Positions 1 through 18,844 are shown, numbered from the stretch's first letter. The stretch: DNA of 64,000 bases from Keratinibaculum paraultunense (GCF_016767175.1 NZ_CP068564.1:2232001-2296000), one strand, 5' to 3'. Made by a program: numbers and translations. Notes: generated from the letters alone by a model not told the origin.

Positions 1-428
1 TTTGCTTCTTGATTGAATTCTCCAATCAATACATTATAATTACTTCCATCCCAAGTAACATCCTTTCCCATACTTTCTGCTACAAATCTAAGTGGAACAA
101 AGATATTATTATCTATTAGCAATGGCTTAACATCCAATTCTAACTCTTCATCATTCACCATAGCCATATTAGAGTTTATAGTTAATAATATATTAGCATT
201 ATTTTTTATTATATAAATCTGATTGTCAACATACTCTACTTTAAAATCCAACTTCTCGCCCAGAGCCTCAACGGGTACGAAGATTCTATCACTTTCTAAG
301 ATAGTTTCCATATCTACACCAGCTCCATCTAATATAACATTGACCTTGTGACCTTGTGCATTTACTGGAATGCTTAACAAAACAACTAATATCAATACAA
401 GACTCAAGTACTTTCCTATACTTTTCAC
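1..428 (-). CDS. Exported protein with copper amine oxidase-like stalk domain (partial)
   Basis: The gene runs off the left edge, so the C-terminus is missing. A hydrophobic signal sequence (about residues 5-22, ending VNA) is followed by two copies of the pattern seen in copper amine oxidase N-terminal-like stalk domains (RIFVPVEALGEKLDF and NIFVPLRFVAESMGKDVTWDG). Such domains are non-catalytic cell-surface modules common in Clostridia. Start: AGGAG sits at 438-442. The GTG at 428 has the best spacing (9 nt); ATG codons at 434 and 437 are in frame but too close. A related domain ends the protein at 42552-43694. Confidence 0.7.
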   Translation of the reverse strand, partial: MKSIGKYLSLVLILVVLLSIPVNAQGHKVNVILDGAGVDMETILESDRIFVPVEALGEKLDFKVEYVDNQIYIIKNNANILLTINSNMAMVNDEELELDVKPLLIDNNIFVPLRFVAESMGKDVTWDGSNYNVLIGEFNQEA

Positions 429-556
429 GCTCATCATCTCCTTAACATTATTTTATCATGATTATAAAAATTATAAGTCATTTCCAATAATTGTAATAAT
501 ATTGTAAATAATAAAAATAAAAACCAGTAAGTTTTCTAACATAATAAACCTGCTGT

Positions 557-781
557 TTAATCCTCTATATCTTCTATAATTATTGCTTCTATATTCTCTT
601 GACTACATACATTTTTTAATTTAATATCATTTGTAATAAAGCAATCAACATTCATGGATATACCTGTAGCTAAAATTATCGCATCTGGAGTTTTAATATT
701 ATAATTAGCTCTAATCCTTGATGCTATATCTGCAATTTTATAATCCACATCAATAATTGATAGATTATTGTTTATTCCCAC
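557..781 (-). pseudogene. PIN-domain (VapC-like) toxin, C-terminal fragment
   Basis: This 74-residue frame matches only the second half of a PIN-domain RNase: TPDAIILATGISMNVDCFITND carries the late acidic residues (PDA and TND). The N-terminal strand with the first catalytic Asp, normally about 50-60 residues upstream, is missing. The frame opens with a GTG that overlaps the end of the VapB-like gene by 10 nt, as in intact VapBC pairs, so an internal deletion appears to have removed the 5' half. It is probably inactive. Confidence 0.65.
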
Positions 782-1014
782 GATTCTCTTTCCTCTTTTA
801 TATATTCATTAGTGTCAATATTGTTCCATAATTCCTTTCCCAATCCTCTCATAACTTTTGCAAAATTATCTGGCTTTTCCATTAATAAGATTTGCCTAGT
901 TTCTTCGTCATATAGCCATATAATTTCAGCACCTGGTCTCAATCCTGCTTTTTTTAATATTTCTTCTGGTATCTTTAGACTTCGGTCCTCATTTAGCTTA
1001 GAAATAAGACTCAT
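772..1014 (-). CDS. AbrB/SpoVT-type antitoxin (VapB-like)
   Basis: An 80-residue protein with a swapped-hairpin AbrB-like N-terminus (SLISKLNEDRSLKIPEEILKKAGLRPG) and an acidic C-terminal tail of the kind that binds a toxin. It would bind DNA as a dimer and neutralise the PIN toxin encoded directly downstream, with which it overlaps by 10 nt. The ATG at 1014 is chosen over an in-frame GTG at 1023 because it sits at a sensible distance from AAGGAAGG. The partner is truncated, so this is probably an orphaned antitoxin. Confidence 0.75.
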   Translation of the reverse strand: MSLISKLNEDRSLKIPEEILKKAGLRPGAEIIWLYDEETRQILLMEKPDNFAKVMRGLGKELWNNIDTNEYIKEERESWE

Positions 1015-1083
1015 TATTAACACTTCCTTCCTTTTATAGATATCTTAGGAGATATTAACTTACATATATTATATCATTATTTT

Positions 1084-1460
1084 TTACACATTGCCTGAAT
1101 TTGTATTAGCTTTTCTTATCTTTACTATAATTATAGATGCAATCTGTATTATGAAAGAAATAATTGTTATTAGTACTAAAAGACCACCAGGGGTAAAGGG
1201 TTTGAAATACCAGCCCCATTCTTCTGATGGCAGCTTTCTTAAAATAAGAAAATATGAAGAAATAAAACTTAATATGTTCCAATAATAAGTATAATAGTAT
1301 TATTTGTCCTAATAGCAGTGCCACAAAGAATTCCAAAACCTGCTATCATAAATCCATAGAATATCATTGTTCCAGAAGTAGCATCACCATTTATAGCTAG
1401 ATATCCATATGGAATACAATAAGCCATGAGCATTAAAAATTTTATTAGTTTTTTATTCAT
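1084..1460 (-). pseudogene. Small membrane protein gene with a frameshift
   Basis: The first frame (1269-1460) encodes a two-segment hydrophobic protein starting MNKKLIKFLMLMAYCIPYGY. It stops at TAA just after IILIIGTY. A one-base shift near 1285 opens another frame that continues to the TAA at 1084 and encodes LPSEEWGWYFKPFTPGG followed by another hydrophobic segment. Together they give a roughly 125-residue protein with about four membrane segments. I do not recognise the family. The frameshift could be real decay or a sequencing error. Confidence 0.55.
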
Positions 1461-1504
1461 ACACCTTGTTCCCCCAAATTATATTTTGTTGTACCTAAAT
1501 CTAT
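1426..1504. repeat. 79-bp repeat, copy 1
   Basis: Covers the first codons and upstream region of the frameshifted membrane gene. It recurs almost unchanged at 5970-6048, where only the start of the gene remains. It links the far-left accessory genes with the cassette at 3.5-6.6 kb. Confidence 0.85.
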
Positions 1505-1555
1505 CACTGTACGTTAAATAGAAATAATACATCATATAGGCCTATGAACTCATGA

Positions 1556-1789
1556 CTAAATGCTTCGCATTTTCTTTTTTATTAAGAACTTGATAATAAT
1601 AGCAATAAATACAATCAATGCAACAGCTAATCCATATATTTGGATGCTTGTATACCAAGGTGCTGACTGAATTTCATATAAATCAGGATGATTTATATAG
1701 TCAAAATATCTATATATAGAATGAGCTATAGATACGCCAATAAATGAGCCAATTACAGAATTTAGAATAATATTTAACCTTTGGAGCAT
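1556..1789 (-). CDS. Small two-segment membrane protein
   Basis: A 77-residue protein with a hydrophobic segment at about 9-27 and a stronger one at about 48-68, followed by a basic tail (KFLIKKKMRSI). The ATG at 1789 is preferred over an in-frame GTG at 1798 because AGAGGTG lies six bases upstream. It stands alone before the first att-like junction. I see no recognisable family or function. Confidence 0.55.
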   Translation of the reverse strand: MLQRLNIILNSVIGSFIGVSIAHSIYRYFDYINHPDLYEIQSAPWYTSIQIYGLAVALIVFIAIIIKFLIKKKMRSI

Positions 1790-1884
1790 ATTGTCCACCT
1801 CTTTCTACCCTTATCTTATTACTACATATAATCCTACTTATACTTACTATACCATTAAATAACAATTTACAATAGTCATATACA

Positions 1885-1901
1885 GGAGACCAAAGGTCTC
1901 C
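1885..1901. other. Hairpin beside att-like site
   Basis: GGAGACC-AAA-GGTCTCC forms a perfect 7-bp stem immediately left of the first att-like junction. It interrupts the otherwise conserved junction flank that is seen at about 3.45 and 6.52 kb. Confidence 0.6.
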
Positions 1902-1903
1902 CC

Positions 1904-1965
1904 TATAACTCATAGCTTGTCCTACTTATGATAGGGTTCACCCTATCAGTTATACTGGCAAAACT
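1904..1965. repeat. att-like junction 1 (rlmH end plus element arm)
   Basis: On the minus strand this reads GGTGAACCCTATCATAAGTAG, the codons GEPYHK-stop of an rlmH end, followed by GGACAAGC. The core is an 18-bp palindrome, GATAGGGTTCACCCTATC (1930-1947). The right arm, with GGCAAAACTTATTT, matches the right arms at 3531 and 6606. Confidence 0.8.
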
Positions 1966-2020
1966 TATTTATCAATCAAAATATAATGAGAATTAAGATT
2001 AAAGTAATAAATATATAAAT

Positions 2021-2057
2021 AAAGCAGTAGATTTAACTACAATAAACCTACTGCTTT
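2021..2057 (-). terminator. Terminator after hepT
   Basis: AAAGCAGTAG pairs with CTACTGCTTT around a 17-nt loop, just downstream of hepT. Similar hairpins close the next cassette (3596-3635) and the R-M operon (10108-10147). Confidence 0.7.
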
Positions 2058-2079
2058 TATAATGCATATATATTAATCC

Positions 2080-2496
2080 TTAAATAAAATTATCATTAAC
2101 AAAAATAACAAATTTCTTTATATCAATTAAATTATTTTTTAAAATGCTATATATTATTTTTTTATCTATGTTTATATATTCGTGAGACAATATATTTCTA
2201 AGACCTACCATATTCCTATAAACTTTCGTTTCCTCATCGTTTAAATATTTCTCCTTATTTAAGATGTTAAATGCTTCACCTAATGTTTCTGGACTGCCCA
2301 TATTATTATCTACAACAATGTGAGTTGCTATATCAATCATCATGTTTATTGCTATAAACAAATTATATTCTACCACATCTTGTATAATATCATCCTTTAA
2401 AAACTCTTCCAGGGATATTTCCTTAAACCTTTCTATTTTATTTATAGAAGTTGATAATTGATTTAATCTCTGTTTAATTACTTCTACATCAACCAT
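2080..2496 (-). CDS. hepT: HepT-family toxin (HEPN RNase, DUF86)
   Basis: A 138-residue all-helical protein with the HEPN signature Rx4HxY near residues 105-112 (RNILSHEY). HepT toxins are HEPN RNases that are silenced when the partner MntA AMPylates the tyrosine of this motif. The gene overlaps mntA by 8 nt in the usual antitoxin-first order, and its length is typical. Both are in cassette 1 of the array, transcribed leftward into a terminator. Confidence 0.9.
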   Translation of the reverse strand: MVDVEVIKQRLNQLSTSINKIERFKEISLEEFLKDDIIQDVVEYNLFIAINMMIDIATHIVVDNNMGSPETLGEAFNILNKEKYLNDEETKVYRNMVGLRNILSHEYINIDKKIIYSILKNNLIDIKKFVIFVNDNFI

Positions 2497-2896
2497 TAGA
2501 TTCCACCTCTTCTTTTAATCTATCTATAGTTCTATCATAAGATAAATCTAAATATCTTTTCATGTCACTATATTCAAATAAGGTTTTCACTTTATATCTG
2601 GTTTCTATAGATTTGTCACGAGTAAACAACAATATATTATTTTTGTAAATTTGATATTTTAATAATGGAGTAGCATCGTTTAATACAATTAAATCAACTT
2701 CTTTTTTACAAGTTTCTGATAAATTCATTTTAATTTCAAGATATGTCTTTATATCCATCTTCTTATTCAAATATATTGCAATGTCTATATCACTATCTAT
2801 TCTCATCTTTCCTGAAACATATGAACCAAAGATATAAGCAAAAATTATATCTTCATATTCCATCAAAATATCTTTACACTTTTTAATAATATCCAT
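2489..2896 (-). CDS. mntA: MntA-family antitoxin (minimal nucleotidyltransferase)
   Basis: A 135-residue nucleotidyltransferase with the GSxxxG...DxD active site (FGSYVSGKMRIDSDIDIAIYL) and a third acidic residue in EVDLIVL. MntA proteins transfer AMP to the HepT tyrosine and so neutralise it. The gene lies directly upstream of hepT and overlaps it by 8 nt, the standard layout. The pair presumably stabilises the cassette or acts in abortive defence. Confidence 0.9.
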   Translation of the reverse strand: MDIIKKCKDILMEYEDIIFAYIFGSYVSGKMRIDSDIDIAIYLNKKMDIKTYLEIKMNLSETCKKEVDLIVLNDATPLLKYQIYKNNILLFTRDKSIETRYKVKTLFEYSDMKRYLDLSYDRTIDRLKEEVESNG

Positions 2897-2990
2897 CTTA
2901 TCACTATCCCTTAAATGGTATGTTATATATTTATTATACCCTATTAATAAAAGTTTGCTATATGTTAAACATAATATAAAGAATGTGAAT

Positions 2991-3389
2991 CTAGATTTGA
3001 TTTGAATATTTTCTATATAAAATCCTTGTTATGATAAAATGTAGACTACTAATTATTATAAAAATAATTGAAATCATTATTCTAATGCCTAAACTAAATT
3101 CCATAAAGTTAAGGGAAATAATAAAAGCTATAAATATTAAAAAGGCTTGTATTAATAATATCCATTTGTTACTTATCGCTACTATACTGCTCAATATACT
3201 GCCTAATAAATGTATTAATGTATATGAAAAAATAAAAAATGCTGGTAAAAATAATAATAAAGTCAAATCTGTAAACAGTGGGAATTCATTATTTATATAA
3301 TTTGGATATAATTTTATCATTAAAAAAATAGAAATAAGAAACGATAAAATAATCCAAAAAGGATATATCACACTTTGAATTTTCTTCAT
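2991..3389 (-). CDS. Four-segment membrane protein of unknown function
   Basis: A 132-residue protein with hydrophobic segments at about 8-26, 43-67, 75-95 and 102-125, short loops and a basic C-terminus. It starts at ATG 3389 behind GAGGAG, and a promoter-like sequence lies 40-70 nt upstream. It is first in cassette 1, ahead of mntA-hepT. I do not recognise the family; it may be an uncharacterised membrane cargo protein. Confidence 0.6.
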   Translation of the reverse strand: MKKIQSVIYPFWIILSFLISIFLMIKLYPNYINNEFPLFTDLTLLLFLPAFFIFSYTLIHLLGSILSSIVAISNKWILLIQAFLIFIAFIISLNFMEFSLGIRIMISIIFIIISSLHFIITRILYRKYSNQI

Positions 3390-3430
3390 AATTTTCTCCT
3401 CGATTATGACGTATTTTTATACTTATATAC

Positions 3431-3460
3431 ATTATATCATTTAATCCTAATTAATAGTAA
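3431..3460 (-). promoter_or_regulatory. Conserved cassette promoter (cassette 1)
   Basis: On the minus strand, TTACTA, 18 bp, then TATAAT, reading into the 132-aa membrane gene. The same arrangement with TTATCA occurs at 6504-6533, inside a repeated flank next to the att-like site. Confidence 0.6.
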
Positions 3461-3477
3461 CCCCTCAAACATTATTC

Positions 3478-3550
3478 TATAACCCATAGCTTGTCCACTA
3501 CTTATGGTATGGTTCACCGTATCGGTTCTACTCGCAAAACTTATTTGATA
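3478..3550. repeat. att-like junction 2
   Basis: The left arm CCCATAGCTTGTCCACTACTTAT is shared with junction 3. The core at 3506-3523 (GGTATGG-TTCA-CCGTATC) is a near-palindrome. The right arm contains CTCGCAAAACTTATTTGATA. About 55 bp further left is also repeated at junction 3. On the minus strand it preserves the rlmH ending, including the stop codon. Confidence 0.85.
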
Positions 3551-3595
3551 GTTGATGTATCTAATAAAACAACAAATTAATTAAGCAGGTAAATA

Positions 3596-3635
3596 AAACC
3601 AGCAGATTTATATCATAATAAAGCTGCTAGTTTTA
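3596..3635 (-). terminator. Terminator of cassette 2
   Basis: AAACCAGCAG pairs with CTGCTAGTTT (one mismatch) just downstream of the flavodoxin-like gene. It resembles the hairpin at 2021-2057 in both stem and loop. Confidence 0.65.
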
Positions 3636-3639
3636 TATT

Positions 3640-4194
3640 TTATAAACTTAGAAATTTATTAATTTGTTCCTTTACTGCTTGGTTGGCAATAAGAGAATCT
3701 TTTATTGAATTTAGACCATACTTATGTGTTTCTAAAATAAGTATATGACTATAGCTAGAAACTGTAGAACAATTATACATTGATTCAAAAATTTGCCTAA
3801 ATGGATTACCTTTATCTATATTACCAATACCAATAATAAATAATTTGTTTAGAAATTCATTGTAATAAGATTCATTTTTCATCCAAAAATCTTGGCTTCG
3901 TTCATTCAATTTAAAATAAAGTGAAGATGGATTTCCACAATACATTGGAACGAGCCAAATAATTCTATTAACTTCTTTTGTTGATTGAAAGTACAAATAA
4001 GCATCGTCATTGTGGTATATGCACCTTTCACTCATACACTCATAATTACAATTCTTGCATTCATGGATATCTAAATCATTTATAGAAATATACTTCACTT
4101 CATAATTTAAAGATTTACTAATAATATAATCTGCCATTAAGGAGCAATTTCCTGTCTTTCGAGCACTGAAAGATACTAAACTAATCTTTCTCAC
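3640..4194 (-). CDS. Flavodoxin-fold NAD(P)H-dependent FMN reductase-like protein
   Basis: A 184-residue protein of the flavodoxin-like reductase type. The N-terminal strand and phosphate-binding loop are KISLVSFSARKTGNCSLMAD. A cysteine cluster (about residues 46-58, CKNCNYECMSERC) resembles iron-sulfur flavoproteins, and WLVPMYCGNPSS fits the second FMN loop. It would bind FMN in the cytoplasm and pass electrons to an unknown partner. It is the last gene of cassette 2, downstream of toxin-antitoxin debris. The family call is sound but the substrate is unknown. Confidence 0.7.
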   Translation of the reverse strand: MRKISLVSFSARKTGNCSLMADYIISKSLNYEVKYISINDLDIHECKNCNYECMSERCIYHNDDAYLYFQSTKEVNRIIWLVPMYCGNPSSLYFKLNERSQDFWMKNESYYNEFLNKLFIIGIGNIDKGNPFRQIFESMYNCSTVSSYSHILILETHKYGLNSIKDSLIANQAVKEQINKFLSL

Positions 4195-4253
4195 TAATAA
4201 TCCTCCCTTTCAGGTTAATGTAAATAATATATTAGATGAATAAAAGTTTTTAT

Positions 4254-4496
4254 TTATAATAATTTCTTCTGCCATTTACCATGTTCCTTATAATAATAGA
4301 ATTCGCTTAGATTATCAGACTCAAAAATGTTAAACATATCTAAAAAATCAGGAGCTAGCTTATACTCACATAAATTCTCTTTTTCTATCCAAAACACATC
4401 ACCTTCTTTTGAGGATTTTAAATTTCCTTCAAATTGATTAGTCTTAAAAAATAAAACTACATATCCCTGATTTTGCTTTGTTTGAAATTGCTTTAC
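4254..4496 (-). pseudogene. Nudix hydrolase-like C-terminal fragment
   Basis: An open frame without a start encodes about 80 residues (GYVVLFFKTNQFEGNLKSS, GDVFWIEKENL, then EFYYYKEHGKWQKKLL) that resemble the second half of Nudix hydrolases. The Nudix box itself is absent. The frame begins exactly where the mazF-like gene above it is cut off, in a different reading frame, so the two are remnants fused at a deletion or recombination point near 4497. Confidence 0.55.
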
Positions 4497-4732
4497 CCCG
4501 AATCCACTTTTAAATTTCCTTCCAACAAATCACTATTAGTAATAAATATGCTATAGTCCTTTGATGTAATATTCGAAGTAATAGCAGACACTATTATATC
4601 CTCTGTTTTAGAATTATAATCATCATTTGATAGTACAAGAACAGGTCTCTTTTTACTGGATGTCAAATCTGTAAATGGTATTGGAATTAGTAATATATCT
4701 CCTTGCTTATACATTATTCCATACCTCGTCAT
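4493..4732 (-). pseudogene. MazF/PemK-like toxin, C-terminally truncated
   Basis: The 79-residue frame has the MazF start (YKQGDILLIPIPFTDLTSSKKRPVLVLS) and continues through DIIVSAITSN to SDLLEGNLKVDSG, where it stops. Complete MazF toxins are about 110 residues and go on with a basic core and final helix. The stop is created where Nudix-like sequence joins. The antitoxin-like gene overlaps its start by 26 nt. It is likely inactive. An apparently intact MazF lies at 35252. Confidence 0.7.
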
Positions 4733-4904
4733 CTATGTCATTGTTCCAAAAGTCCATGCTACTTTTACTTGCCTCTTCTAACTCTTTAAACATATCTCTC
4801 TCATTTTTTATTTTTAAATATCCTATAAAATCTATTACTTCGTGTATTTGATTTTCTGGAATTTCATCTATAAGTTTTAATAATATTTGTTTAGCAGTGT
4901 CCAT
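4707..4904 (-). CDS. Antitoxin-like protein (DUF2281/MazE type)
   Basis: A 65-residue acidic helical protein (LIDEIPENQIHEVIDFIGYLK...) typical of small antitoxins found ahead of MazF-like or PIN toxins. The ATG at 4904 is preferred to an upstream TTG because AAGGT lies about eight bases before it. It overlaps the truncated mazF-like frame. Its toxin is broken, so it survives as an orphan antitoxin in cassette 2. Confidence 0.65.
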   Translation of the reverse strand: MDTAKQILLKLIDEIPENQIHEVIDFIGYLKIKNERDMFKELEEASKSSMDFWNNDIDDEVWNNV

Positions 4905-4985
4905 TCTATCACTACCTTTCAAATAATATAATATATATTTATTATACCATATTATTTACTACATATAATATAAATACTATATAAT

Positions 4986-5843
4986 CTAGAGATTGATGTG
5001 ATTATTTAAGTTATATCCATCATTATAGGAAGAATTACTTATCTCCAATTCTATTATTTCTCTATACCTATCTATTATTTTATTTAATTCACTAAGTGAA
5101 ATATATTCTGATAAGTTCAATGCTTTATTTAGATTCATTGCATTTAAGTAATCTAATCGAACCTTAGCTATTGATATAACTAATTCTGTTTCTCCTATAA
5201 TATCCATCATGGAGTATACATCTAAAAACAAGGCTCGAAAAAGCGAATTCATGGCCCATTTTAATGAACTTACATCATGTCCCTTGGTACAAAAATTTTT
5301 AACTTCACTCCTATACTTTTCCAAATATAAGATGGAGTTCTCCATTTCTTCTTTTATATCAAACCTTAAATTTCCAATATCTTTTTCTATATAGCCTATA
5401 GCAACATTTTGATTCATTTTTTTCCTAAGTTCACTAAAATCATATTTATAATATTTAGGTTCATTTGAATCCTCTCTTCTATTATTTAAAAAAATATATT
5501 TTCCATTTTCGGTTCCACAATAAATTACCGCATGCATCCCATTAATATTTAAACCAAGCATTGCCTTATTATTTAGATTATGTAAAAATATTAATGCATC
5601 TTCTCTATTAAATTCATTTTCTATAAACCTTAATCCTAACTTTTGCAAATAATAATTGAAATATTTATCCTCCTGAAGCATGGAACCTGATATATATCGT
5701 CCCCACTTTTCATCATATTTAAATATAAAAGGTACCTTCATTTCAATTGCTAATTCATAATCCTCTATATGAATATTAAAATCTTCAAGCATATTAGCTA
5801 CACCAGCATAAGAGCATGAGTTATTAAATGTCATATATTTCAT
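4986..5843 (-). CDS. C39/BtrH-like cysteine-fold protein
   Basis: A 285-residue protein with an N-terminal papain-like pattern: NSCSYAGVANMLEDF (Cys near residue 8) and, about 90 residues later, NGMHAVIYCG (His). These match the Cys-His pairs of peptidase C39 and BtrH N-terminal-type domains. The C-terminal half (about 160-285) is helical and unrecognised. The ATG at 5843 is chosen because GGGGG lies eight bases upstream. There is no signal peptide or neighbouring precursor peptide. It could be a peptidase or acyltransferase. Confidence 0.55.
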   Translation of the reverse strand: MKYMTFNNSCSYAGVANMLEDFNIHIEDYELAIEMKVPFIFKYDEKWGRYISGSMLQEDKYFNYYLQKLGLRFIENEFNREDALIFLHNLNNKAMLGLNINGMHAVIYCGTENGKYIFLNNRREDSNEPKYYKYDFSELRKKMNQNVAIGYIEKDIGNLRFDIKEEMENSILYLEKYRSEVKNFCTKGHDVSSLKWAMNSLFRALFLDVYSMMDIIGETELVISIAKVRLDYLNAMNLNKALNLSEYISLSELNKIIDRYREIIELEISNSSYNDGYNLNNHINL

Positions 5844-5969
5844 CCATTTATCCCCCTTAAATCTTTTCAATAGTCTTTATATGGAATTAATCTATATTAA
5901 TATATTTATTATTTCCTTTTTCATATTGTTCCCAAACATGAGGAAATTTCCATTGGACAAACTTTGCAT

Positions 5970-6048
5970 ATGAGCATTAAAAATTTTATTAGTTTTTTAT
6001 TCATATACCTTGTTCCCCCAAATTATATTTCGTTGCACCTAAATCTAT
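5970..6048. repeat. 79-bp repeat, copy 2
   Basis: Nearly identical to 1426-1504, which contains the start of a small membrane gene. Here only the first codons survive before the homology ends, so this is a relic of the same gene. Confidence 0.85.
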
Positions 6049-6111
6049 TAATGAAAATTTTATAAATTATATGCCATATAGACAGCTACAAATTGTACTA
6101 TTAATTCTAGC

Positions 6112-6456
6112 CTAAATCCCATAATGGATAACATATTTATCTCTTATCTTGGTTTTTTCAAACAATGCAATTATTTCATTATATGGTTCTTTATAGTGTT
6201 TGTTAAAAATAGATATAAAGGAATCAACTGATTCAGGTGGTATAAGTGTTATACCACAATATGCAAGATTCATTCCTGGACATTTTAGTGTATGCCAATA
6301 ACAGCAAATACACTGAAATTCTGGCAATAGCGGTTCGATAAAATCATCATTTATTTTAATAAGTTCAAATTTTTCAGGTTCATATTTATCAAATCTTTGG
6401 TATTTTTTGGGGCATTTTCCATAATTCCAAACTCGTGATATGCCATACTTATCCAC
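6112..6456 (-). CDS. Cysteine-containing protein of unknown function
   Basis: A 114-residue frame opening with GTG at 6456. It has six cysteines, including a CxCC motif (EFQCICCYWHTLKCPG) and CPKKYQRF. It is soluble with no signal peptide. It is the first gene of cassette 2, about 40 nt after a promoter-like sequence. The start is uncertain because AAAGGTGG overlaps the GTG, so an N-terminal truncation is possible. The family is not recognised. Confidence 0.45.
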   Translation of the reverse strand: MDKYGISRVWNYGKCPKKYQRFDKYEPEKFELIKINDDFIEPLLPEFQCICCYWHTLKCPGMNLAYCGITLIPPESVDSFISIFNKHYKEPYNEIIALFEKTKIRDKYVIHYGI

Positions 6457-6503
6457 CTTTCTAGATTTAAATAATTTAGCTACACCCTTTCCTACTTATA
6501 CAT

Positions 6504-6533
6504 ATTATATCATTTAATTCTAGTTTATGATAA
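6504..6533 (-). promoter_or_regulatory. Conserved cassette promoter (cassette 2)
   Basis: On the minus strand, TTATCA, 18 bp, then TATAAT, lying within the repeated flank of junction 3 and pointing into the 114-aa gene. Compare 3431-3460. Confidence 0.6.
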
Positions 6534-6549
6534 CCCCTTAAACATTATC

Positions 6550-6622
6550 CTATAACCCATAGCTTGTCCACTACTTATGATACGGTTCACCGTATCGACT
6601 CTACTAGCAAAACTTATTTGAT
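6550..6622. repeat. att-like junction 3
   Basis: The best-preserved junction. The left arm is CCCATAGCTTGTCCACTACTTAT. The core GATACGGTTCACCGTATC (6579-6596) is a perfect palindrome. The right arm is GACTCTACTAGCAAAACTTATT. The minus strand reads GGTGAACCGTATCATAAGTAG, coding GEPYHK-stop as in intact RlmH proteins. The core is identical over 14 bp to the live rlmH end at 39961-39974. Confidence 0.88.
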
Positions 6623-6648
6623 AATAGATATTTCTAATTGAATTATAA

Positions 6649-6686
6649 ATAGGACCATAGAATATTTCTAAATCCTATGGTTCTAT
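6649..6686 (-). terminator. Terminator of cassette 3
   Basis: ATAGGACCATAG pairs with CTATGGTTCTAT (one mismatch), between junction 3 and the HNH gene. Confidence 0.6.
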
Positions 6687-6754
6687 TGTACCTACTATAT
6701 TATATTTAACTAATTTTATTCAATCCGCTATAATAATTTATCATTATAATTAAC

Positions 6755-7837
6755 TTAATTTCTTTTTTTAGATACTACTAAGTTCGGAATTAGTTTAGTA
6801 ATTATATCAGCTTGTAAAGAAATACATCTTTTACTTGTAGAATCAACAATTAGCGGTATTGAAAAAGGAATTCCATCAGCTATTTCAATACTTTTTATAA
6901 CTATAATTGAAGTTACTATGTTTAATAATCTAATTATTATAAGAATCTCTTTTTGTTTATTTATATTTAATATATTTATAAAGTGCCAATTATTGTTTCC
7001 TAAAATCTGTTCTATTTCTTTTTCAAATCTAGTCACATTATCCTTATTTATAAATTCCTCCATATCTCTATCTGTCTTTATGCTAACTTCCCAATAATTG
7101 TCATAATTTTCATCTTTAGCATCTTCATTACCAATCATTTCTAAATATAACACTTCTCGTATTTTATTTATTGTTTCTTCATTTCTTAATTTTTCTGTAT
7201 TAATAATATCTCCACTACTTATAGATATAAAATATAATAACTCATATGCTATCTTTAAAAAAGCTAACTCGATTTTTCTTAAATCATATTCAAGTTTTAT
7301 ATTTATAGCTACACCTTCCCTATTTTCTTTCTTTTCATTAGTCTTCTTGTTTTTTTCAATTTCTTCAATTAATGCAAGTCGTTCTTTATCACTTAATCCT
7401 TTCCCCTTTTTCCTAATTTTTCTAGTGTTTGCTATATTAATTATCTCATCTGCAGTAGATGCTATAATTCTTATTCTACCATCTTCTTCAGCGATTACTT
7501 TTGGGTGTACTCTAATATCATATTGTTCTTTCCTTTTATTATATTTCAGACTTACACCTCGATTATTCTCCACTGTTTTCATACCAGTTGCATTTGTTAA
7601 TATATAAGGAACTTTTCCAGATTTACCTTTTAAATTTAATTTTGCTCTTTTACCTATTAAATAGAATGAATCAGTTAAATGAACATCGATTCTGCTACCT
7701 AACAAACTATTACAATCTTTACACACACAATCTATTATTAATGATTCATTACCTAATGCATCTGGAATTATATGTTCCTTATTAAAATCATTTTGCGTCT
7801 TTTTTTCATCACAAAAAATACAAAGCCTTTTTTCCAT
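6755..7837 (-). CDS. HNH endonuclease-domain protein
   Basis: A 360-residue protein. The N-terminus has an HNH/zinc pattern: CIFCDEK (6-12), KEHIIPDALG (about 20-29) and CVCKDCNSLLG (about 38-48), like the HNH nucleases found in phage-defence proteins. The remaining 300 residues include a charged lysine/glutamate-rich stretch (about 140-175) and a hydrophobic C-terminal part, neither recognised. It is the only gene of cassette 3, with its own terminator. A defence role is an inference from domain and context. Confidence 0.65.
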   Translation of the reverse strand: MEKRLCIFCDEKKTQNDFNKEHIIPDALGNESLIIDCVCKDCNSLLGSRIDVHLTDSFYLIGKRAKLNLKGKSGKVPYILTNATGMKTVENNRGVSLKYNKRKEQYDIRVHPKVIAEEDGRIRIIASTADEIINIANTRKIRKKGKGLSDKERLALIEEIEKNKKTNEKKENREGVAINIKLEYDLRKIELAFLKIAYELLYFISISSGDIINTEKLRNEETINKIREVLYLEMIGNEDAKDENYDNYWEVSIKTDRDMEEFINKDNVTRFEKEIEQILGNNNWHFINILNINKQKEILIIIRLLNIVTSIIVIKSIEIADGIPFSIPLIVDSTSKRCISLQADIITKLIPNLVVSKKRN

Positions 7838-8244
7838 AAAAGCCTCCTTTTATAAAGTACGAAGAAGTTATGAATTTTATCCTATCTAATTCCTCAGTAT
7901 CTCTTAATGAGTGTTCAATGATACTTATTATGTAAAACTGGACTGCCAATAAATCACTTCATATATTGAATTAATAATTAAAGGAATTATAATACCACTC
8001 ATTCTATATTTTTGATAATTTTATATTCATATTTATAGCTTGTCCCTACTATGATAAGGTTCACCGTATTTTTTCCCAATGTCATTTTTAAACCTAATAT
8101 ATCAACCATTATATATAAACCATTGTACAAACAATTAATCTTCTTAACCTCTTTGGACCATTGCACGTTAATTTAATAAAATAAAAATTAATATTAGTTT
8201 TATAAATACAAAAACATTAATATTTTTATTAAGTTCTACTATTT
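7838..8244. other. Intergenic region between cassettes 3 and 4
   Basis: No gene seen. It contains the degenerate att-like junction 4 and the AT-rich upstream region of the HNH gene. Confidence 0.5.
8036..8075. repeat. att-like junction 4 (degenerate)
   Basis: ATAGCTTGTCC followed by CTACTATGATAAGGTTCACCGTAT, clearly the left arm and core of junctions 1-3. The core palindrome has decayed (GATAAGG-TTCA-CCGTATT), and the usual right arm with GCAAAACTTATT is absent. Confidence 0.7.
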
Positions 8245-9912
8245 TTAAAAATTTTCCCTTCTCTTTTCATAAAAATAATAAAATATCGAATTAATAACAT
8301 TAATCATTAAAAAGAATAGTTTGCAAACTAGCTGAGGTGAAAGTTCTTTCTTTTGTATTTCATTCCAATGTGCTAATTTATTTCTATAATTATATCCTAT
8401 CTTTGTTTCTTGGGTTTTCCCAAAATAGAATAGTAAATGCTTTACTTGATATTCACCCAATATTTCTTTAATTACTTCGTTTTCAATTGATAAATACTGG
8501 CCTATAGTCCCTATACTACTGGGCACATATTCTTCATCCTGCTTAATATATTTATATGTAACCCGCAATATATTTTCTGTAAATGCACAAATATACATTG
8601 AGGGACCATAACATAAAGATTGCATTCTCTCATCATCTAGTTCTCCAATATTACTAAATATATTATCAAGCATATTGTATAATAATTTCATATCAAATAT
8701 TATATCTTTTTTCCCATATCTTAATTCTTGGCATATAAATTCTAAATATCCAATATACCAAATTAAGCTCTCTACAAATAATTTTTTATCATTCATAATT
8801 GAAAATATAGCTGCAGTCCCTACTGTTATATATACATTTAAATTCTGTTGATGGGAAAAAGTAAAATAATCATCTGAATCAATATTTGAGGATACTAAAT
8901 CTAAGAATGAAGTTTCTTCTTTAGGCGGAAAATTTAAATTACTTTTCATAATATCACATTCTTTATCGTAGCTATGTGTTAAACTCAAAGGCTTAAATTC
9001 CCATGGCATATCTGATTTTAGCATTTTTATAATATCTACAACGGGAATTTCATACGTAATAACTTTTCCTTTTTCTTTCAAATATTTGTCCATTATTTCT
9101 TCTGACACTTCAACATATCCCTCAAATTGATTTCCCTTTATATGGTTTATCCTTTTCAAAATATTATAAATTTCATAAATAGTATTTTGATGTTCCATAA
9201 TATTGTCAATACTTAATTTGTTCATTATAGATTCACCGTAATTAATAATTGTATTTACAGCAATATCTAAATAATCATATAAGTTTTCTTTTTTTCGATT
9301 ATAAACAGATGCTATTATATCACCTATTTTACTAAGTCTATAGTTAATAGCATTTTCTACTATATCTTTACTAAATAACTTTTCAAATAAGGTAGTTTGA
9401 TTTTCTAATGTCTTTTGCAGTTTATCATAGTTATCAAATATTAGGTAACTATAATTATCTATAAGATATAAAAATACATCTTCTGATATCCCCCCTTGAT
9501 ATTTTATACACAAATCAAGAGTAACATTTTTTATATCATAAATTTCCCTTTCTTTCATAAATATAGTTTTAATGTTTATATTAATAAATTTAATAATATT
9601 TCCTACACTGAATTCCTTATATTTCCCTTCTAGTTTTAAAATTAAATTTTGAAAACTTTCCTGGTTCTCCTTATTCTTAATGTATGGTATGATTTCTTGT
9701 ATTTCTATTATCTTTTTTAGAACTAAATAATCTATAAAATCATTTAAAGTTAAATCTTTTGTAAAATCTTTATCCATATAATAATCACATATGAGTATCC
9801 TATTATCTATTATATTTTTTAAATCATTCGGTGTAGCCAAATCATTCAATCCATAATACTTTACTGTCATATAGGTACCATTTTCGTTCAATACATTTAG
9901 AATGTTTCTCAT
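8245..9912 (-). CDS. Large protein with C-terminal HEPN-type RNase motif
   Basis: A 555-residue soluble protein. Near the C-terminus it carries RNKLAH (510-515) inside YNYRNKLAHWNEI, the Rx4-6H motif of HEPN RNases, followed by a hydrophobic helix, as in DUF4209-type proteins. The rest is helical and unrecognised. It follows the Type III R-M operon in the same direction, about 240 nt away behind that operon's terminator. HEPN proteins are frequent in R-M and abortive-infection loci, so a role as back-up toxin is plausible but inferred. Confidence 0.5.
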   Translation of the reverse strand: MRNILNVLNENGTYMTVKYYGLNDLATPNDLKNIIDNRILICDYYMDKDFTKDLTLNDFIDYLVLKKIIEIQEIIPYIKNKENQESFQNLILKLEGKYKEFSVGNIIKFININIKTIFMKEREIYDIKNVTLDLCIKYQGGISEDVFLYLIDNYSYLIFDNYDKLQKTLENQTTLFEKLFSKDIVENAINYRLSKIGDIIASVYNRKKENLYDYLDIAVNTIINYGESIMNKLSIDNIMEHQNTIYEIYNILKRINHIKGNQFEGYVEVSEEIMDKYLKEKGKVITYEIPVVDIIKMLKSDMPWEFKPLSLTHSYDKECDIMKSNLNFPPKEETSFLDLVSSNIDSDDYFTFSHQQNLNVYITVGTAAIFSIMNDKKLFVESLIWYIGYLEFICQELRYGKKDIIFDMKLLYNMLDNIFSNIGELDDERMQSLCYGPSMYICAFTENILRVTYKYIKQDEEYVPSSIGTIGQYLSIENEVIKEILGEYQVKHLLFYFGKTQETKIGYNYRNKLAHWNEIQKKELSPQLVCKLFFLMINVINSIFYYFYEKRRENF

Positions 9913-10107
9913 AATACCACCTCTACCATTACCATTCTAACACCTGCCATAATTGATTTTATATTTGACATCATAACCTCTCCCATTTTGTATAACGACC
10001 TTTTATCCCTTTTTACAATAAATTTATCATACTAATTCTAAACAGTTCCTTTACAATATGAACAAACATTATATTTTATAAATATATTTAATCTAATAAA
10101 AATTAAA

Positions 10108-10147
10108 ATACAGCAGTAGGCCTAATATGTCAAGCCTACTGCTGTAT
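10108..10147 (-). terminator. Terminator of the Type III R-M operon
   Basis: ATACAGCAGTAGGC pairs perfectly with GCCTACTGCTGTAT (14-bp stem) at the end of res. Confidence 0.8.
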
Positions 10148-10149
10148 AA

Positions 10150-13100
10150 TTAAAATATATCCTCTATCCTATTTTTCCAATATTTTTTATATTCCTCTGA
10201 TATACTACCTGAACCCTTTTTATTATATAATATAAGTTGCGTTTGAACTATCTCTTCCTTATATTTATACTCTTTTTTGCCTTCAAAAAACCTTTTATAA
10301 CCTCTAATCTTATAGTTAACGTCTGAAAAAGATGTACTCTTAGGGTCTACAAATAATATTTTATAGACGCCAGTTTCTTTCTCTTTCAACCAAAATATAA
10401 AATCAGGTTTAAATTGTCTATATTTATTCTTCTTCTCATCATAATAAGGTATATATATTTTATCTATGGTCTCATCTATCTTACTAAACATCCACCATTC
10501 ATACTTGTTGTCAATATTATCCTTATTATCTTCTATATAATTTTCTAAATCAATTATAAAGCAATGCTCGCTTTGTTCCTTAATAATATGTGTAATATAA
10601 TCAATTTTATCATTTTCTGTCGTAATTATAGGTAAATAATAATGCTCAGGTATATACTTTATTTGTACTCCCTCTACTTCAATTTTATCAGATATTTTAC
10701 TAGTTTCATCTAAATATTTAGTAGCTTCTTCTTTGGAAATAACCCCCTCAAGCAGCTTATCTAGTATTTCATCTCTATTAGTTTTACTCTCTTTTGCTCT
10801 TTTTACCTTTTCAATCTCTTTAACAATTTTTTCATATTTATCCTTAGATATCTTTATCTTTTTAAAGTGAATAATATCTTTATCCTCATTAATCTCTTTA
10901 AAACTTAATATTTTATCCTTCATTCTTATATGTTCTTTTAGTTTATATATCAATATATCTAAATTGGAATAAGTATTTAAATTTGTAAATTCAAAGTTGT
11001 TTTTGTCTACCAACAATTCTTTAATCTTTTTTAATTGCTTTAAACTTATGTCATGTTTCAAAAGTAAATTATTATCATTATTTTCCAAAATATATCGTCT
11101 CATTCTTTCATAGTCTGATTTTAAAATATAAAATTTTGGCATATCACATATATTTATAAATTCAGTTTCCTTATATTTGGGAACTAAAAGGGTGTATGGT
11201 GCTTCTGATTTTCTAATATTATCTATCCCTACCATTTCTATATCTTCTTCAGTATCCTTTTCCATCGCATCTATTACTTTTTCTAATACATTTTTATCGG
11301 TAGCAAATACAAATAGGCTTTCTAATGAATGACCATAAGTTAATAGAGTACTATCTTGTTTAATGGGATTTAATTTTTTTAATACTTCTTCACCTCTAAT
11401 TTTATCTATTCTCTTTCTTTCTCCTTTAATTGGTTGGATTCTAATCCCCCTACCGAGAGATTGTAGAACATATTTTTGTGATTGAGCCTGAGTGCCTATA
11501 TTAATATAGTTAATTATATTAGGTCTTAAAGAATCCCATCCTTCATAAAAGGCTCTTGAGCCCATAAGTATATTTATATCTTCATATTCATCAATATTTT
11601 CAAAATATCTTTTATCTTCATATCTTTCAGTTATAGTCAGGTTCTTTAAATTATCTTTTACCCATTTCCTAGCTTCTCCAATTCTTACAATACAAAATGG
11701 ACTTGGATTTTCAGATGTTTTTAAGAAAAAGGCAACTTCATTTTCATTGTCTTTTGAGTAGCTTATTTCAATTTCACCTTTTTCCCGTGAATTATACACA
11801 TATTTATATATTTCATCTATATCAATACCGCTGACCTTATTTGTATCTATATCAATATCACCCATTTTATACATATATTGTCCCTTGTTAAATTCATTTA
11901 TAAGCTCAATTCTTGCCTCTCTAAACAAATCAGCATCACAACCATTTTGAGCTATTTCCATTATCTCCTTAAAATATAATAGCAAATCTGGGTCTGTCTC
12001 ATATTTAGATTTGTTAACTGTGTTTACTAGAGTAAGCATCATAGGGCTATGATATATTTTATCTATATCACTTAACTCCTCATAGCATTTTTTCAAGTAA
12101 GATAATGTTATTAATCCTTTTAATACTATCTTTTTTTTGTTTCTTATAACTTCATCATCTTCTATTTTACCTTTGAAATCATCAAACTCAGATTTAGATA
12201 CATATATCTTTTTTCCATAACCTGCTTCTAAAAACTTCTTTAAGTTAAAATTATAAATTGTAGTTATTTTATCTATTTCATCCGTAAAAGTTGCAGAAAA
12301 GTTAAACAGAAAACCATTCTTAGAAAATGCTGAAAAGTATGCCTTCATTTTAGAGTCTCCACTTTCCCCTCTATGAGCCTCATCTAATATTACATACCAT
12401 TTACCATTATTTACTCTCTGAGCATAATTTAGCATCGCATCAGTATCATGGCCATCAATAAAATTATCTGACCTGTAATAGTATACAGTTATTTCATTTG
12501 AAAAAGACATAGACATCTGCTCTGTGTTAGTCTTTTTACCTTCAAATTCTTTTAAATTTACCAATCTAATATGGGGATTATCTGGGGTTAAATTAAAGTC
12601 TTCTAATTCATCTTTTAATTGCTTTAGTAAATCATTTCTAGGGGCTAATAGCATTATATTGTTTTTAGGTATTTCCCCTCTATCCATTAGAATTCCAAGT
12701 ATTTGAATAAGTTTGATTATTACAAGAGATTTTCCACTAGCAGTTGACATCCAAAAATTCATTCTATTTGTAAATTCCTTAAAACTAATAGTATCCTCTT
12801 CTACATTGAAATGTTTTTCATATATTTCAAATACTTCATCCCTAAATCCGTATTTACTACTCCTTCTTTTCTGTCCTGCAGCTGATTCAATATTTCCATC
12901 ATATATAGATTTATATATTTCAAATATAGCTGATTTTCTTTTGTCATTTGCTTCAGATTCTTCATCTATTAAATAATCTTCTATATCTTCATAATATTTA
13001 TATAACCCTAAAATTGCATACTTAATAGCTTCTTCTTGATATTCAAACAGAGTTCTTTTAAAAGAATATTTTTTTATATTAGGTATTTCCCAACTAGATG

Positions 13101-13155
13101 GAAGTTCGTCAAATTTATTTATGTCGATTATTTTTTCAAACAATATATTTTTCAT
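10150..13155 (-). CDS. res: Type III restriction enzyme Res subunit
   Basis: A 1001-residue SF2 helicase-nuclease. Walker A is STASGKS (about 137-143), the DEAH box is ILDEAH (about 256-261), followed by FSATFTDE and the motif VI-like QSLGRGIRIQP. The C-terminus has a PD-(D/E)xK-like nuclease pattern (KPDFIFWL ... LFVDPKS). Type III Res proteins work with Mod to cleave DNA after ATP-dependent sliding or translocation. The gene is coupled to mod by a TAATG overlap. It is the main defence cargo of cassette 4. Confidence 0.88.
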   Translation of the reverse strand: MKNILFEKIIDINKFDELPSSWEIPNIKKYSFKRTLFEYQEEAIKYAILGLYKYYEDIEDYLIDEESEANDKRKSAIFEIYKSIYDGNIESAAGQKRRSSKYGFRDEVFEIYEKHFNVEEDTISFKEFTNRMNFWMSTASGKSLVIIKLIQILGILMDRGEIPKNNIMLLAPRNDLLKQLKDELEDFNLTPDNPHIRLVNLKEFEGKKTNTEQMSMSFSNEITVYYYRSDNFIDGHDTDAMLNYAQRVNNGKWYVILDEAHRGESGDSKMKAYFSAFSKNGFLFNFSATFTDEIDKITTIYNFNLKKFLEAGYGKKIYVSKSEFDDFKGKIEDDEVIRNKKKIVLKGLITLSYLKKCYEELSDIDKIYHSPMMLTLVNTVNKSKYETDPDLLLYFKEIMEIAQNGCDADLFREARIELINEFNKGQYMYKMGDIDIDTNKVSGIDIDEIYKYVYNSREKGEIEISYSKDNENEVAFFLKTSENPSPFCIVRIGEARKWVKDNLKNLTITERYEDKRYFENIDEYEDINILMGSRAFYEGWDSLRPNIINYINIGTQAQSQKYVLQSLGRGIRIQPIKGERKRIDKIRGEEVLKKLNPIKQDSTLLTYGHSLESLFVFATDKNVLEKVIDAMEKDTEEDIEMVGIDNIRKSEAPYTLLVPKYKETEFINICDMPKFYILKSDYERMRRYILENNDNNLLLKHDISLKQLKKIKELLVDKNNFEFTNLNTYSNLDILIYKLKEHIRMKDKILSFKEINEDKDIIHFKKIKISKDKYEKIVKEIEKVKRAKESKTNRDEILDKLLEGVISKEEATKYLDETSKISDKIEVEGVQIKYIPEHYYLPIITTENDKIDYITHIIKEQSEHCFIIDLENYIEDNKDNIDNKYEWWMFSKIDETIDKIYIPYYDEKKNKYRQFKPDFIFWLKEKETGVYKILFVDPKSTSFSDVNYKIRGYKRFFEGKKEYKYKEEIVQTQLILYNKKGSGSISEEYKKYWKNRIEDIF

Positions 13156-15599
13156 TATTCACACCACCAAATTAGAGGTTTTATCATTTTATAATCTATA
13201 TTATTCAAATCAACCTTTGTTCCATCTTCAAATATTACTTCATCTTCTGTTATTTTCTTAATCCATTTTCCTGTTAGATTAGATAATGTTTCTGGTATAT
13301 CAATCTTTTCATATAATTTACTTAAATCTACTTTAACCTCGTCACCTTGAATTTCCATACAATAATTCAACTTTTCATCCCTTAGAAATACATATTGTTC
13401 AAATGGAGATTTGTTTTGATTATAAATCAAATGTTCATCATCTTTATATACTGCTTTTCTTAATGTATCTTCATATTGCTCTAAAGAATAGTATTTAAAA
13501 AATCCTCCACCTTGCCAATTAATGTCTTTTGAAAGATGAGGTTTCCTAATTTTATCAATCACTTTCATTGTTTTATCACCATATAAAACCCATTTCATTC
13601 TTCCTAAAATGCCTAATTTTTTTTCATTTTTTTTATCATAATAAAACTCCTTAAAATATTTTCCTAGCTCAACTCCTAAATATTTTCTATTTAATTTATG
13701 TGCAACTGCAAAGGTCGTTCCTATTCCTCCAAAAAAATCCAAAATTAAATCTCCTTTATCTGTACTAGCTTGAATAATTCTTCTCAATAAATTTTCAGGT
13801 TTTTGTGCCGAACTAAAGCCAAAGCTTTCACTTACTCTCATTTCTGATTGTGTAAATGAAAATATATCATTCCAAATATCCCCAATTGGAAATATTTTTT
13901 CATTAATTTCAATATTCTTTTTCAATAATTCACCATTTTCCCAATATTCAATATAATAATTGAAGTCATGTATTTTTTTGGGTTTTTCTATTTCTTCTTT
14001 TTTTTCTGATATCAAATCTAACCAACCAATATCAAGTTTTGTAGTATTTCTATTAGGTTTCCATAATTTATTAAATTTGCTTTTTCCATTTTTACAGTAG
14101 AAAATTGTTTGATGTTTTAATACAAAATTTTCTCCAAAACTTTTGTATCCAAATAAATCAGCTTCTTCATCTTTTGTAGCATTTGTATCAAATATAATTT
14201 CGGTAATTTCAGAATAAAGTTTTTTCAAAATTTGTTTTCCATAATCATTCGCATTATCATCTAAATGCAAATAAAAACTACCATCTTCTTTCATAAATTC
14301 TTTTCCAAGTAATATTCTGTCATATATAATTGATAACCAAGTGGAATTTTTATATTCATCAACATATATAAAATCGCTTCCAGTATTGAATGGTGGGTCT
14401 ATATATATACATTGTACTTTTCCTTTGTATTTTGGTAATAGGGTATTTAAAGCCTGATAATTTTCTGAGTGGATTAATCTCCCATCTAATTCTTCATCTA
14501 AATTGTCAAATAAACCTAGTATATCTAATTCTAAATCTTTAAAATATTTGGTATCTATAGGTAAATGTTTATGTTTTTCTTCATCTCTATTATTAAAATC
14601 AAAACCATCTTCTACCATCCCTAGCTCTTCCCATTCCCTTATTTGTCTATCTAAATTAGGATGATTTGCTATTTTGTTAATTATCTCATCTGTAAGCTTA
14701 TCTATTGTTATTACATAATTTGAATTTAAAACAAATTTAGGTTTATTCCATATTCTTACTAACTCATCTTCAAATTGAGATATAAAATCTATTACATCAT
14801 AAGCTATATCTTTTAATACCATTAGTTGATTAATTCTCTTTTCATTGAATTTATTATAACTTCTTTCCCCATCACCAAACATATACTGATAAAGATATAT
14901 ATCAAATCTATCTGTTAAAAATTTCTTTGCATTCTTATTTATAAAATAATCTACTTCTGATTGCTTTTTAAAGATTTTAAACACTTTTATTAGTTCATCT
15001 TCACTTATTTCAATACCGTTTTTATTTAATTTCTTTAATATGTCATCAATTTTAGTAGTTTTATTGCCAGATTTATACTCAGGATAAAAAATAATTTTCT
15101 TTTTGTCTTTATTTTCTTTTACTATACATTCCCTAAAAACTATCTCTTTCTTCTCATTGTTTTTTTTATGTTCTAATTTGGAAACATCAAAGTAATAGTC
15201 AATACCATCTACTTCAAATTCAATATCCTGATATAATATATCAGTTTTTACATAATAAAGCATCTGAGTTTTCCAGAACAATGATACATCTTCATTCTCA
15301 GAATAAACTTTCTCATATGTATTTTTATTTAATTCATTATAGGTATAATAAACTGAGCCAGTGTCTGTAAAATAATCTTTAAAAAAATCATATAGCCTTT
15401 CATAAAGTTCTTCTTTAAATTCTGGAAATTTCTTAGTTTTCTCATTAACTACTTTAGTCAATTCTTCTTCTATTATCTCAAAATGTTTAGCCTTCATAGT
15501 CATAAGATTTACATATCCAGAATCTCCTTTAATCGGTGTCCCAATATACATATCTTTTAATATCTCATAAAACTTATCTTCATAAGTCACAATACTCAC
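13155..15599 (-). CDS. mod: Type III DNA methyltransferase Mod subunit
   Basis: An 814-residue N6-adenine methyltransferase. The catalytic DPPFNTG motif lies near residue 400 (IYIDPPFNTGSDFIY) and the SAM-binding motif FFGGIGTT near 620, the order of beta-class Mod enzymes. About 330 extra N-terminal residues precede the catalytic core, making it larger than typical 600-650-residue Mod proteins. It overlaps res by one base (TAATG), so translation is coupled. The promoter lies in the 190-bp divergent region shared with the rlmH-like gene. Confidence 0.88.
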   Translation of the reverse strand: MSIVTYEDKFYEILKDMYIGTPIKGDSGYVNLMTMKAKHFEIIEEELTKVVNEKTKKFPEFKEELYERLYDFFKDYFTDTGSVYYTYNELNKNTYEKVYSENEDVSLFWKTQMLYYVKTDILYQDIEFEVDGIDYYFDVSKLEHKKNNEKKEIVFRECIVKENKDKKKIIFYPEYKSGNKTTKIDDILKKLNKNGIEISEDELIKVFKIFKKQSEVDYFINKNAKKFLTDRFDIYLYQYMFGDGERSYNKFNEKRINQLMVLKDIAYDVIDFISQFEDELVRIWNKPKFVLNSNYVITIDKLTDEIINKIANHPNLDRQIREWEELGMVEDGFDFNNRDEEKHKHLPIDTKYFKDLELDILGLFDNLDEELDGRLIHSENYQALNTLLPKYKGKVQCIYIDPPFNTGSDFIYVDEYKNSTWLSIIYDRILLGKEFMKEDGSFYLHLDDNANDYGKQILKKLYSEITEIIFDTNATKDEEADLFGYKSFGENFVLKHQTIFYCKNGKSKFNKLWKPNRNTTKLDIGWLDLISEKKEEIEKPKKIHDFNYYIEYWENGELLKKNIEINEKIFPIGDIWNDIFSFTQSEMRVSESFGFSSAQKPENLLRRIIQASTDKGDLILDFFGGIGTTFAVAHKLNRKYLGVELGKYFKEFYYDKKNEKKLGILGRMKWVLYGDKTMKVIDKIRKPHLSKDINWQGGGFFKYYSLEQYEDTLRKAVYKDDEHLIYNQNKSPFEQYVFLRDEKLNYCMEIQGDEVKVDLSKLYEKIDIPETLSNLTGKWIKKITEDEVIFEDGTKVDLNNIDYKMIKPLIWWCE

Positions 15600-15738
15600 C
15601 CTTGCTTTCTAATATATTTTAATTAAAATCTTACTTTAATTCTAACAATTATATCTATTTTTTACAAATAAGAAATAAAATTTTCTACCTTATCTTCTAA
15701 ATTAAAATAATTCATGGTACATCCTTTTCATTTCACCT

Positions 15739-15760
15739 CTATTCAATTATAATTGAATAG
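15739..15760. promoter_or_regulatory. 22-bp perfect palindrome between divergent genes
   Basis: The strand-symmetric sequence centred at 15749/15750 (CTATTCAATTA and its complement) lies between mod and the rlmH-like gene. It is a candidate operator controlling one or both. No regulator gene is adjacent. Confidence 0.5.
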
Positions 15761-15790
15761 TCTTTAATAATTTAATTGAAAGGATATGCT

Positions 15791-16207: not shown

Positions 16208-16216
16208 GACAAGCCT
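16188..16216. repeat. att-like sequence at the end of the rlmH-like gene (inverted)
   Basis: CAACCCTACCATAAATAGGACAAGC closely matches the minus strand of junction 1 (GAACCCTATCATAAGTAGGACAAGC). It includes the stop codon and the GGACAAGC tail that follows rlmH in all left junctions, but in the opposite orientation. Confidence 0.65.
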
Positions 16217-16256
16217 TTTATTTGCAAATAAGATATGTTTTTACAAATAAAAGGCT
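16212..16256 (+). terminator. Hairpin after the rlmH-like gene
   Basis: AGCCTTTTATTTG and CAAATAAAAGGCT form a perfect 13-bp stem with a 19-nt loop, starting five bases after the stop codon. Confidence 0.65.
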
Positions 16257-16386
16257 AATTATTTAAAACTGAACTCTCTGCAGTTAAGGTGACAAATGTG
16301 CATATTACTATGATACGGCGTTTTTTTATGTCAAAATCATGTATATATTGTATGTCTAATGCTAAAGCATCTATATATTTTATATA

Positions 16387-16458: not shown

Positions 16459-16530
16459 GTATATATTAGATTCCCCTTCTAAATTTTATATAGGTTTGCC
16501 TTTTATATATACTTCTACATGTTCATATTA

Positions 16531-17493: not shown

Positions 17494-17551
17494 TTTTTCA
17501 TTCCTTTCTTATTTTAAAGTTTCTAATTATATTACATATAGTCAATAAAAA

Positions 17552-18843: not shown

Positions 18844-18844
18844 C

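Follow-up and report, generated by a model that had tools for sequence, protein, structure and literature searches.

The window, by which we mean the whole 64,000-nucleotide stretch of Keratinibaculum paraultunense DNA analyzed, contains the chromosomal rlmH gene at 39954..40433 on the minus strand. Its product ends in GEPYHR because an inserted element supplies the 3' end of the gene, whereas GEPYHK is the C-terminus of RlmH in relatives. In genome G001, from the same genus, rlmH has one extra codon at the attachment site (YHRK-stop; L087 7593-7626). Tail to tail with rlmH, and overlapping its 3' end, lies the plus-strand gene (38414..39979) of a CcrB-like large serine recombinase of 521 aa. 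The best profile score of this protein was obtained with NCBIfam CcrB (306 bits), and CcrC gave 262 bits. As the equivalog cut-off for these CcrB and CcrC profiles is 900 bits, and the protein reaches none of the curated cut-offs (CcrA, CcrB, CcrC), it is considered related to the cassette-chromosome recombinases without belonging to any named one. The junction of the inserted element with rlmH, designated B.P, spans 39935..39974 on the minus strand, with the core octamer GGTGAACC at 39967-39974 followed by an arm P that mirrors the arm P' found in the cassettes.

A large proximal element (8245..39953) extends from rlmH to a degraded site, S11, although its outer limit might also be the next site, S10. 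Besides the recombinase, it encodes Rep-like and XRE proteins, a type III restriction-modification (R-M) system and a second rlmH, and it holds a peptide-modification/ABC-transporter cluster and two IS21-type copies. The cluster (20815-29964) encodes a radical SAM/B12-binding protein, two ABC transporters, repeated small proteins and an M16 peptidase, and resembles one for a modified peptide of the bacteriocin type. The two IS21-type copies (IstA/IstB-like; 18091-20398 and 32220-34527) are near-identical, and a truncated phage-integrase fragment is present at 17722-18039. The second rlmH-like gene (15776-16207, plus strand, 44% identical) ends in QPYHK-stop-GGACAAGC and adjoins the type III R-M system; it was rejected as an anchor of the array because of its opposite orientation and is possibly a carried decoy or a spare attachment site. 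Extra rlmH-like matches beside the main rlmH were also seen in G034 and G047.

The first-pass annotation of this DNA had proposed a tandem array with four junctions, at which the end of rlmH recurs at about 1930, 3506 and 6579 and, in degraded form, at 8053. These copies are present, all on the minus strand and far above chance, and the first three have one foreign arm in common (minus-strand reading AAATAAGTTTTGCNAGTA...GATACGGTGAACC) that the copy at 8053 does not possess. However, they are only part of the array: a whole-genome search detected at least 11 sites behind rlmH, all on the minus strand between 2,213.8 and 2,240.1 kb of the genome, mostly 1.3-3 kb apart with a single gap of 8 kb. 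At least seven of them lie, in identical orientation, in the roughly 20 kb by which the array extends leftward past the window edge, so that the window contains only part of the array. A 21-nt site pattern gave 6 matches at up to 3 mismatches, compared with 0.01 expected. The sites in the window, all on the minus strand, are S8 (1909..1971; the array continues to its left at genome 2,213.8-2,225.9 kb), S9 (3483..3550) and S10 (6556..6623), each with the layout P'-core-B', and S11 (8035..8069), which consists of a core and the B' half without a P' arm. The core GGTGAACC is found at 1935-1942, 3511-3518 and 6584-6591, and a degraded core at 8058-8065; S1 and S11 are degraded sites of the array. 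In the copies at 3506 and 6579, TG stands between the stop codon and GGACAAGC. The whole row behind rlmH comprises about 60 kb and about a dozen small gene packages, nearly all in one direction. The last interval (a 555-aa protein and a type III R-M system) has no further copy to close it before rlmH, 32 kb away.

Read in the direction of rlmH, a complete site consists of the P' arm (TTTTGC.AGTA......GATACGGT), a central GA and B' (ACC.TA.CATAARTAG), followed by GGACAAGC. The end of rlmH in the window has the layout B-core-P, with P lying within the end of the recombinase gene. When P was compared with the mirror image of P', 21-24 of 32 positions matched, and 14-16 of the outer 24; for the outer 24 positions, about 8 of 10,000 windows would be expected to give at least 16 matches by chance. 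By itself, the P arm is a weak database match (E 0.76) and carries weight only because position and register had been set in advance. As P mirrors P', P-core-P' forms a near-palindrome about GA, as expected for a site of a large serine recombinase. Judged from their sequence, the cassette sites are hybrid, combining P' with the rlmH-end half B'. Where relatives lack such an element, rlmH ends in an intact B-core-B', and a cassette head follows directly. Insertion at the rlmH 3' end, one criterion for SCC and for the Enterococcus cassette chromosome (ECC), is thus met, and so is the criterion for their att sites, namely direct repeats together with inverted repeats and a TATCATAA motif, here the dyad GATACGGT-GA-ACCGTATC followed by ATAAG; use of the TATCATAA motif as a criterion was taken from PMC6222049.

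Four cassettes, all on the minus strand, lie wholly or partly in the window. Cassette c1 (6588..8061) encodes an HNH-endonuclease-domain protein (6755-7837; PF14279). Cassette c2 (3515..6587), probably a fusion of older cassettes, contains genes for a 114-aa protein, a 294-aa unknown protein and an NADPH-FMN-reductase-like protein, as well as an antitoxin-like gene with a truncated MazF/PemK remnant. A membrane protein and an MntA/HepT pair (2489-2896 and 2080-2496) are encoded by c3 (1939..3514), and positions 1..1938 belong to the rlmH-proximal part of c4, which measures 8.0 kb, leaves the window and reaches genome position ~2,225,905. Two further features are seen in L042 (349-1537 and 8864-9052). 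Just past the last clear site there is a set of sigma-factor and serpin-like genes, and a weak P' remnant at about 2,211.2 kb of the genome suggests that this set is an older cassette. Cassette c7 is headed by a fragment of a related sigma-factor gene.

To the same order belong ten other genomes with a similar array behind an intact rlmH end. With a site profile, rlmH and co-oriented sites were detected in G012 (8 sites), G015 (3), G017 (1), G043 (3), G221 (3) and G222 (3), and also in G031, G045, G057 and G220; the same-genus G001 has two array fragments. A 26-nt pattern allowing up to 2 mismatches matched 36 of 249 genomes of the order, the reversed control giving 0 matches, and in an even sample of the class the full site was found, besides this genome, in only one genome outside the order. 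A further complete P'-core-B' site of G017 lies about 256 kb away from rlmH and adjoins cassette-tail sequence (L082 ~6476-6542); it is either a displaced piece of an array or a secondary insertion site.

Unit statistics were obtained from 45 intervals in 13 array sequences, considering ORFs of at least 60 aa. Units are mostly 0.7-3 kb in size, and 148 of their 159 ORFs point as rlmH does; several of those in the opposite direction resemble transposon genes. A terminator-like hairpin, whose spacing from the core varies rather little, is present in 39 of 45 unit tails versus 27 of 292 interior windows, and 30 of 45 heads contain TATAAT in their initial 130 nt, versus 174 of 702 interior windows. 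The cargo includes HepT/MntA, DUF6036 nucleotidyltransferase pairs, MazF-like, PIN and Fic proteins, GNAT acetyltransferases, methyltransferases, NUDIX and HNH proteins.

Only one array genome yielded a recombinase close to that of the window. In the others the best CcrB-profile score was at most 183 bits, with no match at the threshold used in G001, G031 and G222, and no recombinase fragments were detected in the other 15 array sequences. Most arrays are recombinase-less, and since most array genomes have no close recombinase, the agent of most past events remains unseen. A serine recombinase had already been named as the builder of the array, and a CcrB-like enzyme does lie at the rlmH end, but that this enzyme, as opposed to a lost relative, moved the cassettes has not been shown. 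Relatives of the window recombinase were absent from viral contigs, occurred on plasmids only at <60% identity and, among genome contigs, were represented by one 34% relative in Staphylococcus auricularis. Six relatives in the order with 33-40% identity (G026, G028, G029, G062, G152, G239) were discarded because none of them is located at a site bearing this P' arm. A conserved serine recombinase, of which G000, G012, G015, G017 and G045 each have one copy, was also rejected as a trans-acting cassette enzyme: in several relatives it adjoins pieces of a sigK-like sigma-factor gene (L118-L120) and therefore looks like an unrelated, skin-element-type recombinase. Further specificity classes are suggested by other CcrB-like recombinases (L129, L130, also L127), in the vicinity of which there are rlmH-type sites whose P' arm differs, for example AAAACCGCAG...TTACGGTGAACC.

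The first-pass annotation had suggested looking for the cassettes in other orders or singly at rlmH in other genomes, and both other orders and cassettes joined directly to rlmH were encountered. The same units (HepT/MntA, the DUF6036 pair and GNAT) recur at 87-99% nucleotide identity across genomes, in other orders or first at rlmH, while rlmH itself mostly shows 69-77% identity between the compared genomes. HepT/MntA is in c3 here, in c4 in G012 and in c1, the first behind rlmH, in G031 and G045; the start of this unit also lies directly behind rlmH in G001. The first 2.8 kb of c4 of the window correspond to the first cassette behind rlmH in G012 (97.3% identical), and the single cassette of G017 to the third of G222 (96.6% over 1,018 nt), the homology starting at the core in both cases. 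In the same-genus G001 a c10-type unit is followed by a c5-type unit and then by a match to the chromosomal flank. The criterion for an integron, exchangeable cassettes in the same direction at one site, is therefore met. Decay of one large SCC-like element, whose internal duplications and deletions after a single insertion would have left the repeats behind, had been named as the likelier reading should the order be fixed in all relatives and no cassette ever be found alone. The degraded S1 and S11 and gene remnants in some units, such as the truncated MazF, would agree with it. However, orders differ between genomes, even within the genus, units are found at rlmH elsewhere, and recombinase remnants are absent from the arrays, and as reordered units are moreover combined with breakpoints in the core, such decay is not the explanation and is retained only as a very improbable one.

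Breakpoints were located by base-by-base comparison of six tail pairs, four of which were resolved, and of two head pairs, in which the head adjoins rlmH in one genome and another cassette in the other. Ahead of the core, the four tail pairs differ at 0-3 of 56 nt, and beyond it at 28-40 of 60 nt, the first mismatch after the core being at +5 in all four, whereas the two head pairs differ at 37-39 of 56 nt ahead of the core and at 2 of 60 nt beyond it. The pairs G221/G222 and G012/G220 had diverged already before the core, leaving their breakpoint unresolved. The switch of homology thus falls inside or at the edge of GGTGAACC, which favors a site-specific enzyme over homologous recombination between the repeats of about 160 nt (arm, core and head). 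Homologous recombination could move units without such an enzyme, as heads and tails are conserved enough to recombine (about 75-95%), and joints inside units, where a variable first gene is combined with a shared second pair, do lie away from the core. It is nevertheless considered unlikely, because identity collapses in or just after the 8-bp core instead of being scattered over the repeat and because the joint at rlmH has only the core and B' in common. Serial insertion of complete recombinase-bearing elements, each later losing its recombinase and most of its length, appears less probable again. One such element now occupies rlmH, and staphylococcal SCC remnants without ccr are known, but the units are compact, run from promoter to terminator, mostly measure 0.7-3 kb and are common to different families, and the array sequences other than that of the window contain no piece of a recombinase.

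We therefore prefer to interpret the region as an array of small, mobile, non-autonomous cassettes that SCC/ECC-type site-specific recombination has gathered at the rlmH 3' end, with a probability of roughly 75%. The integron-like reading of the first-pass annotation is upheld, given the reordering of cassettes between genomes and homology breaks inside the 8-bp core; the closest known systems, SCC and ECC, which likewise use the rlmH end, were absent from it. Site positions and orientation, unit structure, exchange of cassettes between genomes and the core breakpoints were observed directly. Each unit consists of a head (the B' half, usually followed by a promoter-like stretch), 1-5 genes directed away from rlmH, a terminator and the tail arm P', the activity of promoter and terminator being inferred. 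Strand exchange would take place within GGTGAACC, most likely at the central GA. A circular intermediate with P'-core-B', likewise inferred, would insert at the rlmH end, restore the last rlmH codons and leave P'-core-B' at the far side, so that units could stack without limit, the newest adjoining rlmH. The recombinase, which the cassettes do not carry, would be supplied by a separate element such as the one parked at rlmH in the window; that this enzyme is the agent is an inference.

The pairing of sites is also inferred, and two routes can be envisaged, neither of which has been shown. In the direct route, a P'.B' circle would insert at rlmH B.B' and regenerate the rlmH end, which is the SCC geometry and resembles the description of ECC (PMC6222049). 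In the shuttle route, the recombinase element would enter by P.P' x B.B' and exit by B.P x any downstream P'.B', thereby picking up or dropping cassettes. The shuttle would need only pairings accepted by classical serine integrases, which do not use P'.B' x B.B' (PMC3783163); as CcrA and CcrB are reported to be more permissive in pairing (PMC3783163), the direct route is not excluded. Against the preferred interpretation, neither circular cassettes nor a restored junction were seen, and since many units give the impression of older cassettes fused together, some exchange may occur by other means. A more specific and tentative version, to which we give slightly less than even odds, is a clostridial counterpart of the integron, in which rlmH would be the entry gate, mini-cassettes with promoter, terminator and hybrid P'.B' sites would be exchanged, and a rare CcrB-like shuttle would load or unload any number of them, leaving recombinase-less arrays.

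If the cassette-array interpretation is true, the SCC principle, with its large staphylococcal and enterococcal islands, is turned, in another order of bacteria, into a system of cassette arrays, and toxin-antitoxin, acetyltransferase and defence-like cargo moves between families. With dozens of natural att sites with readable breakpoints, the site pairings accepted by Ccr-type recombinases are directly testable, and the array sites offer a simple marker for new small defence or toxin-antitoxin modules.

In integrons, small cassettes in the same direction are ordered at one anchor, the cargo is rich in toxin-antitoxin and acetyltransferase genes, and integrase-less arrays (CALIN) exist. The present system resembles integrons (attI/attC, IntI) in its ordered, same-direction array at one anchor, its similar cargo and its recombinase-less arrays, but its anchor recombinase is a serine recombinase, its sites, judged by sequence alone, resemble double-strand dyad sites placed where a protein-coding gene ends, and its cassettes seem to bring their own promoter and terminator. 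The parked element has the canonical P.P' layout with a central GA known from serine-integrase prophages and integrative mobilizable elements; in contrast, the cassettes have hybrid P'.B' sites and no integrase. In SCC/SCCmec composite islands, the rlmH end is attB, the end of the rlmH frame is kept, and tandem and ccr-less units occur; here, by contrast, the recombinase is below the CcrA, CcrB and CcrC cut-offs and the array units consist of a single gene to a few genes. ECC elements insert at the rlmH 3' end by CcrAB large serine recombinases, have att sites around TATCATAA with dyad symmetry in the circle and far-end sites, measure 21-78 kb, carry ccrAB and have fewer than 5 att sites per genome; half of them have at least two far-end sites (PMC6222049). 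The array shares with ECC the rlmH 3' end, a large serine recombinase and dyad att sites around TATCATAA, but differs by up to 11 sites per array and by units of about 1-3 kb without a recombinase. No report of such arrays in Clostridia was found in the literature searched, and the papers found do not describe the number of units, their small size, recombinase-less nature and promoter-to-terminator build, or their spread in another order. Anchor, site layout and recombinase family place the array beside SCC and ECC, and in functional terms it is best read as working like an integron.
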